Virus record (IMG/VR): IMGVR_UViG_3300025131_000106
Location: 1 to 41,008 of that record
DNA length: 41,008 nucleotides
From: a virus
Strand: one strand, 5' to 3'
The notes under the pieces were generated by a model. That model was not told the DNA's origin and made no database searches. It was given only the letters and a program-made list of their open reading frames with translations. How positions within the stretch are numbered: position 1 is the stretch's first letter; each line of letters opens with the position of its first letter. This document shows positions 483 to 3,482 of the stretch, piece after piece. Both the position numbers and the translations under genes were made by a program.

Positions 483-1886
483 TTATTGTAACTTGTAGTA
501 TACGGAAGATTTATCTGACTGAGATGACGCATAAAGATAAAGTTCCTTCATTGCCATATCTTTATCTTTACAGGACGTGTTCAACCAATCTAAAAATCTT
601 AACCCAGCAAGTTTACTATATCTCCAAGACTTATCCTGAGTATCAATTTCTACCTTCATATTTATTTCTTGTTTCTTCGTTTGGTCAAGTCCTTTTGCAT
701 TATATTCTTTCAACAAATCATAGATCTCAATTGTGATATCTTTTGATTTACTTGCATTTGGATCAGACTCTGCCCAGGTAGGAATATTAAATTGATTTAT
801 GTTTGTAAATCCTGCATTTTTTAAAAGTTCAACAACAACTGCACCTTGAACTTTTCCTTGAGCAGCAGATTTTCCTTTCAGTTCTAACTTCCAATCTCCT
901 TTAGAAGACCCACCAAAATTTCTTGCTTGAAATTTATCAAACTGTCCAGGTCCATAATAGAGATAAACATCCATAGAGGAAGTAAAGGTGAGATCATACT
1001 TTTCATACTTTGCCTTTTCGTTTGCCTTTCTAACTGCAACGGATTGATTATTTTTAGGATCCATCTTTGGCGTACCCTCAATCTTTTTGAGAGAAATACC
1101 AATCAATTTTTCCTCATTAAACAATTGAAGGAGTGCATTGTTTAAACAATCAATAGTATTCTCTCCATCCAAATGCTTCTTAATCTCTGCAATCTCAGAT
1201 TCCTTCACCATCCATATATCGGCAGGATTCCACTTATCCTCTGAAGAGAGATTAGTTTGTCCCTTTACTCTACCAAATGCTTTTTTAATTGCTCCATCAT
1301 CAAGATCCCTATCTCCTCTCAAAAATTTATATCCAGATCCACCAACCTTTTCAAATATTTCATTTGCCCCTTTCACAGATCCTTCTTTCCATTCTTTTGG
1401 AATACCCATAATTTCTTCTAGTTTTGTACCACCCACATCAGCATATTTCATTCCACACTGAAGATCTTCTATGGTATAGATTTCCTTCTCACCACAATAA
1501 TATCTCATAGCAGCGTATACACACTGCGCCGATTCTTGTATTGCTGTTGCTGCAGACCCACCACCAGATCCTTTTGATCCGTTTGGTTTTACAAGAATTC
1601 TAATGTATTTTTTTACATCGCCTATTAAGTATACATCTAACTCAGTTTCTTTTTCTAATATTTTAACTTTAACTCCATCTCCATCAAGAGATGTTTGAAT
1701 ATTAGCAGCTGCCGTTACTCTCTTTGCTTGTGGCACATAGACCACCATCTCAAGAACTTTTTTTGCTCTGGGATTTTCATTGGGGTTCTTAACATCGAAA
1801 AGATAGTAAGAATAATCTTCTCCACCTAATGCACCCATGACTTTCTCAAAAGTCTTTACTGCAGATGGGGGAATAGTAATTGCCAT
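483..1886 (-). CDS. Conserved hypothetical protein, 467 residues, possibly a virion protein
   Basis: Function not recognised. The frame could begin at a GTG at 1901, but the ATG at 1886 has GGAG nine bases upstream and gives the product MAITIPPSAVKTFEKV; I chose that. The protein is soluble-looking and lysine-rich, without signal peptide or membrane segment. It has a Gly/Ser-rich stretch near residues 105-112 (SKGSGGGSA) that looks like a linker between an N-terminal domain of about 100 residues and the rest. A late-type promoter (CATAAATA, 1915-1922) lies about 30 bases upstream, suggesting late expression and hence a possible structural or assembly role; this is inference. A 32-bp segment of its coding sequence (1266-1297) recurs inverted at 3331-3362. 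Confidence 0.85.
   Translation of the reverse strand: MAITIPPSAVKTFEKVMGALGGEDYSYYLFDVKNPNENPRAKKVLEMVVYVPQAKRVTAAANIQTSLDGDGVKVKILEKETELDVYLIGDVKKYIRILVKPNGSKGSGGGSAATAIQESAQCVYAAMRYYCGEKEIYTIEDLQCGMKYADVGGTKLEEIMGIPKEWKEGSVKGANEIFEKVGGSGYKFLRGDRDLDDGAIKKAFGRVKGQTNLSSEDKWNPADIWMVKESEIAEIKKHLDGENTIDCLNNALLQLFNEEKLIGISLKKIEGTPKMDPKNNQSVAVRKANEKAKYEKYDLTFTSSMDVYLYYGPGQFDKFQARNFGGSSKGDWKLELKGKSAAQGKVQGAVVVELLKNAGFTNINQFNIPTWAESDPNASKSKDITIEIYDLLKEYNAKGLDQTKKQEINMKVEIDTQDKSWRYSKLAGLRFLDWLNTSCKDKDMAMKELYLYASSQSDKSSVYYKLQ
1266..1297. repeat. 32-bp inverted repeat, copy 1 (inside coding sequence)
   Basis: On the minus strand this stretch encodes GAIKKAFGRV in the 467-residue protein. The same 32 bases occur on the plus strand at 3331-3362 with no mismatch, and similarity stops abruptly on both sides. 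Confidence 0.9.
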
Positions 1887-1914
1887 AGGAATACGCTCCA
1901 CCGACGTTTACCTT

Positions 1915-1922
1915 TATTTATG
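1915..1922 (-). promoter_or_regulatory. Late promoter, CATAAATA
   Basis: The minus strand reads CATAAATA, close to the T4 late consensus TATAAATA used by gp55-containing RNA polymerase. It is 29 bases upstream of the ATG at 1886 and overlaps the last two bases of the tRNA gene. Confidence 0.55.
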
Positions 1923-1993
1923 GAGTTAAGGAGACTCGAACTCCTGACATCCTGCTTGCAAAGCAGGCGATCTACCAACTGAGCTATAACCCC
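1921..1993 (-). tRNA. tRNA-Ala (anticodon UGC)
   Basis: The minus strand folds as a 73-nt cloverleaf. The acceptor stem is GGGGTTA/TAACTCC (one G-U pair), the anticodon stem CCTGC/GCAGG with loop TTTGCAA gives anticodon TGC, and the T arm is AGGAG-TTCGAGT-CTCCT. The D stem GCTC/GATC has one mismatch (C11:U24), where bacterial tRNA-Ala normally has a G-C pair. No CCA tail is encoded after the discriminator A. Its 5' end overlaps the last ten bases of the 63-residue ORF upstream. Phage tRNAs of this kind are thought to adjust codon supply, here for GCA/GCN alanine codons; whether the mismatched D stem is tolerated is unknown. Confidence 0.9.
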
Positions 1994-2175
1994 TCAAGAA
2001 AGTCCCTTTCCTTTTGATAAGGGACTGTTTCTCCAGTATACAGTTTCCATCCCTCATGAAGTTCTGGAACTAACCACTGATCAACCCTGTAACAGTATTG
2101 CCAATTGACTGGTTGAACGCAGTTCATTACAACAACAGTCCAAAATGCTGCTACATGATTGATTACAGTAGTCAT
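1984..2175 (-). CDS. Small hypothetical protein, 63 residues
   Basis: Not recognised. The frame extends upstream to 2223, but the ATG at 2175 (MTTVINHVAAFWTVVVMN) follows the upstream gene's stop almost directly (TGAGATG), so coupled translation from that ATG is likely. The first half is hydrophobic and could be a short membrane segment (residues about 4-18), but it contains His and Asn, so this is weak. The C-terminal half is Trp/Tyr-rich and charged. The final codons overlap the 5' end of the tRNA-Ala gene by ten bases, so reading through the tRNA and translating this gene share sequence. It is the last in a string of three small overlapping genes after mazG. Confidence 0.6.
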   Translation of the reverse strand: MTTVINHVAAFWTVVVMNCVQPVNWQYCYRVDQWLVPELHEGWKLYTGETVPYQKERDFLEGL

Positions 2176-2176
2176 C

Positions 2177-2392
2177 TCACTTTTTGTCAACTGGTTTTTT
2201 ATTAAAACCAAATGGTGCGACACCCTCTTCCAATCTCATCTTGTGAGCAAGAGAGCAGACGGATTCCATAACTTTAAGACAATCCTCTGTCTTAGATCCC
2301 TCGGGCATATTGCGAAAGATGATATCAAACAGAGGAAAGAATCTATCCGACGCTGCTTGTACCTCTTCGGGTGACAGTGGATCTTTATTCAT
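2177..2392 (-). CDS. Small hypothetical protein, 71 residues
   Basis: Not recognised. The start chosen is the ATG at 2392 (MNKDPLSPEEVQAASDRFF), because it overlaps the stop of the upstream gene by eight bases, the usual pattern here; a longer frame from 2434 would overlap that gene far more. The protein looks helical, with an acidic N-terminus and a basic C-terminus ending KKPVDKK, and has no membrane segment. The visible residue pattern (EEVQAASDRFFPLFDIIF) suggests an amphipathic helix. It sits between two other tiny genes downstream of mazG and is probably made from the same message. Confidence 0.65.
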   Translation of the reverse strand: MNKDPLSPEEVQAASDRFFPLFDIIFRNMPEGSKTEDCLKVMESVCSLAHKMRLEEGVAPFGFNKKPVDKK

Positions 2393-2625: not shown

Positions 2626-3255
2626 TCACACGTCACCGTCTTTACGGTTTTCTGAGTAGTGAACATCAAACTCACCACCAGGATAACGGGACTTGAGTTT
2701 ATCTACATTCATCTCAATGATTTCATCAAGTGAGATGTTGAGACCCATACAGGCTTGAGCAACATACCACATAATGTCACCGAGTTCACGCTTGAGGTGG
2801 AACAGGTTTTCTTCATTGGCAGGTTTGCCTTGGAAGATAATCTTTTTAACAACCTCAGTAAACTCACCTGCCTCTGCGGACATACCTACAGCAGCAGTCA
2901 AGAGTCTCCAAGTTTCAAATCCTTCTCCCCTCAGTTCTTGGATACGATACTCAAAGGCATCAGCATCTTTACTAGGTGCAGATGTAACTGCATTTACAAA
3001 CTCAAGATATGCGTCAGTGTTTACTTTTTTGGTCATTTTAAATCCGGGATAAGATGGATTGTTAGTTTCATTTGATTGGCAGGGCGTATTTGTTGTTTTT
3101 TGGTAAGATATTTTCTTTAAGTATTTTTCTATTCCTTGACCTACGTAATCTCTGCAAAAACTGGAGATGTTGATTTGGTGTTCTTTTTTGAGGAGATGTA
3201 GTTTTGATGTGATTTGATCTTGTGGATCTGTAATGGTCAGTTGTGCCTTTCTCAT
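2626..3255 (-). CDS. mazG: MazG-type nucleotide pyrophosphohydrolase with ribbon-helix-helix-like N-terminal extension
   Basis: Residues 74-209 are a MazG domain: AEAGEFTEVVKK followed by ELGDIMWYVAQ gives the EExxE...ExxD metal-binding pattern of all-alpha NTP pyrophosphatases, and the tail YPGGEFDVHYSENR is like other cyanophage MazG proteins. These enzymes hydrolyse (d)NTPs and are proposed to affect host nucleotide or ppGpp pools. The cyanophage proteins I know of begin near Met74 (ATG at 3036). Here the frame stays open to an ATG at 3255, adding 73 residues. The first 48 show a beta strand (KAQLTIT), a helix, and then INISSFCRDYVGQGIEKYL, which fits helix B of ribbon-helix-helix DNA-binding proteins; about 25 polar linker residues follow. 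Neither start has a strong ribosome site, so a separate shorter MazG is possible. Confidence 0.85.
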   Translation of the reverse strand: MRKAQLTITDPQDQITSKLHLLKKEHQINISSFCRDYVGQGIEKYLKKISYQKTTNTPCQSNETNNPSYPGFKMTKKVNTDAYLEFVNAVTSAPSKDADAFEYRIQELRGEGFETWRLLTAAVGMSAEAGEFTEVVKKIIFQGKPANEENLFHLKRELGDIMWYVAQACMGLNISLDEIIEMNVDKLKSRYPGGEFDVHYSENRKDGDV

Positions 3256-3330
3256 AATTGGTAATCGGTAAGTTGGTGGATGATGGTGGAGTTTCTAAAA
3301 TTGCTTTCTTTGCAGCAGTAAGAGTTGAGA

Positions 3331-3362
3331 ATGGAGCAATTAAAAAAGCATTTGGTAGAGTA
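3331..3362. repeat. 32-bp inverted repeat, copy 2 (in intergenic gap)
   Basis: This is identical, in inverse orientation, to 1266-1297. It lies in the gap between mazG and the 37-residue ORF. The surrounding 113 bases hold no gene I can support. On the plus strand the copy is in frame with an open stretch, so it looks like a displaced gene fragment. Confidence 0.9.
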
Positions 3363-3368
3363 TTTGAA

Positions 3369-3482
3369 TTAATAATAATGTCCCTCCCATCTACAGTTTC
3401 TCATATTAACAAGATTTACAGCATCTCGATGAGCACCGCAATCAGCAATTTTTTGACCACGGGGATTAAATACAAAATACAT
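3369..3482 (-). CDS. Very small protein, 37 residues, coupled to gp41
   Basis: The gp41 stop and this start share bases (TAATG at 3480-3484), the coupling typical of this genome. The product begins MYFVFNPRGQKIADCGAHRDA and ends in an aromatic, basic tail (CRWEGHYY). There is no known domain. The composition is protein-like (mixed Asn, Gly, Arg, aromatic residues), not an obvious shadow. It is probably translated with the helicase message; two cysteines and two histidines could bind metal, but the spacing fits no finger I know. Confidence 0.55.
   Translation of the reverse strand: MYFVFNPRGQKIADCGAHRDAVNLVNMRNCRWEGHYY

Follow-up and report, generated by a model that had tools for sequence, protein, structure and literature searches.

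The window, the whole 41,008-nucleotide stretch of viral DNA analysed here (IMG/VR record IMGVR_UViG_3300025131_000106), carries mazG after gp41, the same position as in cyanophages, within a 209-codon open reading frame that extends 73 codons upstream of Met74; the frame spans 222 codons from stop to stop. The first-pass annotation had described this ORF and its open upstream codons, had placed the start of cyanophage MazG proteins near Met74, and had proposed a polar linker joining a ribbon-helix-helix (RHH) extension to MazG. The ORF and frame check confirms the first, the conserved match begins at about residues 74–78 in the compared loci in agreement with the second, and the linker is likewise borne out. 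A separate RHH gene ending before mazG is ruled out, as the frame contains no stop. The features of the locus are as follows.

2626–3255, minus strand: ORF for the RHH-like domain, linker and MazG (209 aa, ATG start); frame also open in contigs L004/L006 and L005
2629–3024, minus strand: MazG domain, residues 78–209 (Pfam match; E128xxE131 ... E157xxD160 motif intact and invariant)
3025–3114, minus strand: linker, residues 48–77 (no homologue in the linker frame)
3034–3036, minus strand: Met74, where MazG usually begins in relatives (preceded by a weak GGA Shine-Dalgarno)
3115–3255, minus strand: RHH-like domain, residues 1–47 (host-family homology; profile matches to ORF56 and CopG; AF2 helices at low confidence)
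3256–3324, minus strand: 69 bp of inserted DNA separating the RHH start from the gp32 piece (no convincing match)
3325–3362, minus strand: 38-bp inverted gp32 copy (36/38) at the upstream breakpoint, from alignment to gp32 DNA
3369–3482, minus strand: truncated FNPRG remnant (37 codons and TAA); the gene lies between gp41 and mazG in relatives
1266–1303, plus strand: source of the 38-bp copy (36/38 identical), inside gp32 (483–1901, minus strand)

The Pfam MazG model matches residues 125–192 (1.3e-8; 35.4 bits, cut-off 22), and PHROG 229 matches from residue 74 on (7.9e-59). Residues 74–209 are 76–95% identical to the MazG proteins of cyanophages S-PM2, S-SKS1 (91%), and ACG-2014b (84%), and identity to IMG/VR contigs reaches 95%. 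The metal-site residues E128/E131 and E157/D160 (ExxE ... ExxD) are identical across the 35 sequences aligned, and the catalytic motif is likewise intact in the cyanophage proteins, which differ in starting at about the equivalent of Met74 without an RHH domain. The structure model is poor, and for that reason its fold matches dCTPase/MazG structures only weakly. S-PM2 MazG, used here as a comparison for enzyme activity only, prefers dGTP and dCTP as hydrolysis substrates and shows no binding or hydrolysis of (p)ppGpp (PMC6850273); by analogy the MazG half described here should have the same activity.

The 73-residue extension alone has no significant match in Pfam, PHROGs, NCBIfam, or the PDB. 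No curated Pfam or NCBIfam RHH model scores above cut-off for the phage sequence, and a host homologue reaches CcdA alone (0.066, under cut-off), although these cut-offs gauge family-model coverage and are not a defining structural criterion of an RHH domain. Among 400 host genomes (the family of Synechococcus WH7803), ORFs without internal stops match the extension from Met1 to about residue 47 at 40–47% identity, aligned Met1 to Met1; a further set of weak host matches (L181–L188) was dropped on account of internal stops. An HMM built from host sequences only finds the window ORF with E = 1.2e-8 in a set of 9,036 six-frame ORFs drawn from the window and its relatives (next best 2.1). It scores the ORF at 37.1 bits, and the top score among 5,000 shuffles is 9.4. 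The family pattern is MRRNQLTITYP...L..LL.LK....LNISAFCREAIAEKLE, and the phage extension retains its signature residues Q5, T7, T9, P11, L19, L22, S31, F33, C34, and R35.

Two family profiles, both containing the phage row, were compared with all PDB chains. The broadened profile (A4) matches ORF56 of pRN1 first (9.5e-5) and CopG second (0.032), and the narrower one (A2) matches ORF56 at 0.0075; both proteins are RHH repressors. ORF56 (2k9i/3ft7) and CopG of pMV158 (1b01/1ea4/2cpg) have the same RHH length and register as the phage domain, but they are free-standing repressors without an enzyme and the similarity is remote. Their genes adjoin plasmid replication genes. The layout of the phage domain is a strand (K3–T9) and helices at about 11–26 and about 30–47, with strand residues Q5, T7, and T9 aligning with R4, T6, and T8 of CopG, which are DNA-contacting residues.

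Structure prediction of residues 1–73, which the first-pass annotation had proposed, recovers part of this layout. The AF2 model of the extension alone has helices at 11–26 and 30–55, and that of the full chain has helices at 11–26 and 30–46 followed by coil at 47–79, both at low confidence (pLDDT 60 and 49, respectively). The strand is not formed, as could be anticipated when an obligate dimer is modelled as a monomer, and a Foldseek search with the low-confidence 1–73 model returned nothing and is uninformative. The fold assignment is thus drawn from the sequence profiles and not from the structure models. That the RHH appearance is a chance resemblance would suit the missing strand, the low-confidence single-sequence model, and the lack of Pfam, NCBIfam, or significant PDB matches for the 73 residues alone, but it is contradicted by the host HMM, the shuffle control, and the PDB profile matches, and we regard it as extremely improbable. 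What began as a visual guess is now supported by homology as an RHH-like domain. If folded, the RHH half should, by analogy, dimerise and bind DNA.

The host relatives are stand-alone proteins of ~52 aa (52–58 aa) in Synechococcus/Cyanobium-type (Cyanobiaceae) genomes; a profile search gives matches in 19 genomes, about a dozen of them full-length, and members are uncommon in the rest of the phylum sample. They share with the phage domain the Met start, the QLTIT..P...L..L......NIS.FCR pattern, and an ATGA overlap with the upstream stop, but are unfused, and the upstream gene is Rep-like rather than FNPRG or gp41. This upstream gene, whose 3′ end the RHH gene often overlaps (ATGA), encodes a protein of ~180 aa with a GQFHTHL (HxH) motif and weak but concordant replication matches (Pfam REP_ORF2-G2P, 0.015; PHROG 3584 replication initiation, 0.013). 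Upstream in the host cassettes is a tyrosine integrase (PF00589, 2.3e-17); the downstream side often has either a Y1 transposase or another small protein. The cassettes at L217–L228 sometimes contain a second small protein of 51 aa (VKTITIRLPDVEAAM...) together with a Y1 transposase, and possibly represent a small integrative element of picocyanobacteria.

From its gene content we infer that the host cassette is a mobile element, and its arrangement resembles a chromosomally integrated form of the copy-control/rep pair known from small replicons. An exact-peptide scan of IMG/VR gave no match to the host Rep-like protein, and PADLOC gave none for the RHH or Rep-like proteins. The neighbours of the host RHH genes, Pfam-scanned in part, are Rep-like, integrase, and Y1 transposase genes, with no toxin recognised among them. 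In view of the Rep-like and integrase genes nearby in hosts, plasmid or element copy-control repressors are a more apt comparison than the antitoxins invoked initially, though the RHH-like character itself stands.

The distribution of the fusion was determined among the best 80 IMG/VR loci together with isolate phages (up to 85 loci). Upstream of Met74 the frame in relatives is closed or unrelated, and the 73-codon extension occurs beside the window in two IMG/VR contigs only (L005 and the single contig L004/L006). Both are of the window's own lineage, with DNA more than 99% identical. The search for the same fusion in related phages was thus positive in two same-lineage contigs and negative in all other compared loci, in keeping with the view that other cyanophage MazG proteins lack the extension. 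With residues 1–73, tblastn against phages and plasmids found no relative, an exact-peptide scan of genome contigs found no match, and two profile scans of IMG/VR returned only the two contigs already noted, or none. In the literature searched we found no description of an RHH-MazG protein, and co-mentions apparently concern, from titles and abstracts, toxin-antitoxin systems or defence. Each of the two domain types is already known; their combination as RHH-MazG is new and occurs in one phage lineage.

The window, L005, and L004/L006 have the same junction in separate assemblies, and an assembly error is therefore unlikely. Across the three the ORF has no indel and no stop, the sole change being S68F in the linker of L006; the contigs diverge too little for selection on the ORF to be measurable. 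Six other contigs (L012, L057, L058, L065, L066, L073) have a different in-frame N-terminal stretch (MNKTELQIQANSPYNDGWTREMYQQEL...) just before MazG, and as it is common to several contigs the MazG N-terminus appears to have varied repeatedly.

The organization of relatives illustrates the pre-insertion state. In S-SCSM1 the order is gp41, TAATG, FNPRG (82 aa), ATGA, mazG, and an FNPRG match precedes mazG in about thirty compared loci, the rest being without it. Six contigs have a near-identical FNPRG N-terminus with the gene intact (87–105 aa) and no RHH before mazG. The window's match to its relatives ends at 3363 and the gp32 piece begins at 3362; at the 3′ junction the sequence returns to the stretch nearest mazG (..GATTTAAAATGACC, as in L064). 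The 3′ end of the linker coincides with the surviving end of the old upstream gene, which reads ..DLK* in a different frame. The insert DNA gave short AT-rich chance matches only against the 400 host genomes. The possibility that a plus-strand reading frame across the insert ('VIGKLVDDGG..GAIKKAFGRV') encodes a gp32 paralogue was rejected, since the similarity is limited to the 38-bp copy and tblastn gave no match.

Judging from the junction sequences, we take the event to be a replacement by illegitimate recombination, with the gp32 piece suggesting template switching. The C-terminal half of the FNPRG gene would have been replaced recently in the phage lineage by the 38-bp inverted gp32 piece, followed by 69 bp without a convincing match and then by a small RHH gene related to those beside rep-like genes in picocyanobacterial integrase cassettes. 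Lacking a stop of its own, the RHH frame reads on across what is left of the old gene and into mazG, and the ORF accordingly encodes an RHH domain (1–47), a flexible linker (48–77), and MazG (78–209). The linker looks unstructured in the low-confidence models. ORF L075 1977–2624, lying between gp41 and FNPRG, encodes 215 aa and is 2OG-Fe(II) oxygenase-like by eye; similarly large gp41-mazG gaps are also present in L041, L043, L070, and L072, and this interval seems to have received insertions repeatedly.

The homology, the anatomy, the insertion, and the open frame are direct observations; the signals for translation of the fusion point both ways. In L004/L006 the codon at 3371–3369 is CAA rather than TAA, so that a chimeric FNPRG ORF of 76 aa remains open and ends at TGA 3254–3252, overlapping ATG 3255 (ATGA) in the same type of junction that precedes mazG in relatives such as S-SCSM1. 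In the window and L005, TAA at 3371–3369 stops the truncated FNPRG after 37 codons, which counts against the fusion, as does the lack of a Shine-Dalgarno at Met1 (dG 0.1), Met74 having GGA (dG −3.3). Several other genes of the phage also lack a Shine-Dalgarno, and both situations, none and a weak one, occur among genes of the window. The codon score of the RHH frame (+0.107 per codon) is the best of the six frames, which favours the fusion, but is below that of MazG (0.331), which does not. Also counting against the fusion are the lack of an ATAAATA late-promoter-like motif nearby, and the linker, which is novel and the site of the only change among the contigs.

It is conceivable, and with a substantial if minority share of the probability, that the extension is an untranslated, decaying insertion, that MazG synthesis begins at Met74 alone, as it does in all relatives, and that the open frame is accidental. 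The Shine-Dalgarno difference between Met1 and Met74, the break in the upstream ORF in two of the three contigs, and the novel linker all accord with this, and the chance of an in-frame open junction (1/3 × P(25 open codons)) is about 0.06–0.14, such that an open junction is by itself unsurprising. It is at odds with the ATGA coupling kept in L004/L006, and with the retention of the RHH signature and the failure of any stop to arise in three contigs. Those points, together with the RHH homology, the pre-insertion relatives, the gp32-copy breakpoint, the shared junction, the RHH-frame codon score, and the invariant MazG catalytic residues, lead us to favour, with a little more than middling confidence, a recent RHH-linker-MazG fusion in the phage lineage, probably made alongside unfused MazG. 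From the translation signals, the odds that the fused product is made seem somewhat better than even, and unfused MazG is likely made as well. Ribosomes would initiate at ATG 3255, by coupling to the upstream ORF in contigs that keep it unbroken, and also at Met74 to yield some unfused MazG. In the fused protein the RHH portion would form dimers that bind DNA like CopG and ORF56, and the MazG portion would retain its pyrophosphohydrolase activity.

Three roles for such a fused protein can be envisaged. The first-pass annotation's proposal, a nucleotide-sensing transcription regulator in which RHH binding to a promoter, of the phage or of the host, changes with the substrate state of MazG, draws on the architecture alone and on fusions such as PutA. 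In PutA an N-terminal RHH domain is fused to a metabolic enzyme in one chain, a precedent for such a fusion's working, but the enzyme is unrelated to MazG and the fusion is old, conserved, and functionally proven. We consider this role very unlikely here: the fusion is confined to one phage lineage, the linker is apparently unstructured, the MazG of relatives works without an RHH domain, and cyanophage MazG is a dGTP/dCTP pyrophosphohydrolase that does not bind (p)ppGpp (PMC6850273).

A host-element role is attractive by analogy with the related host family. The fusion might target a competing satellite or an integrative element of the host, its captured, copy-control-like RHH domain binding the element's operator and repressing rep or integrase during infection, with MazG as a passenger or dimerisation partner. 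The position of the host family within integrase and Rep-like cassettes, overlapping rep, fits such a role, as does the finding that the best structural relatives are copy-control repressors. The operator may differ at only 40–47% identity, however, and no convincing palindrome or shared operator-like repeat was recognised upstream of the host rep genes, and we consider the proposal unlikely. Similarly speculative is that a captured host-element repressor domain and a dNTP pyrophosphohydrolase together form a DNA-tethered MazG, silencing an element or depleting dGTP/dCTP at the bound DNA during infection.

The locus appears to present a domain fusion soon after its formation, with the pre-insertion state (six relatives), a donor-related family, and the junction with its gp32 copy visible together. 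If made, the product would be the first RHH-MazG protein, as far as found here, and would link picocyanobacterial mobile-element regulators to cyanophage nucleotide metabolism.

Elsewhere in the window, a tRNA-Ala (TGC) gene lies at 1921–1993 (minus strand), immediately upstream of gp32 and in the same orientation; S-SCSM1 likewise has a tRNA-Ala, downstream of mazG. At position 2223, the 5′ end of a small ORF (1984–2223, minus strand), L005 and L006 have six extra bases relative to the window.
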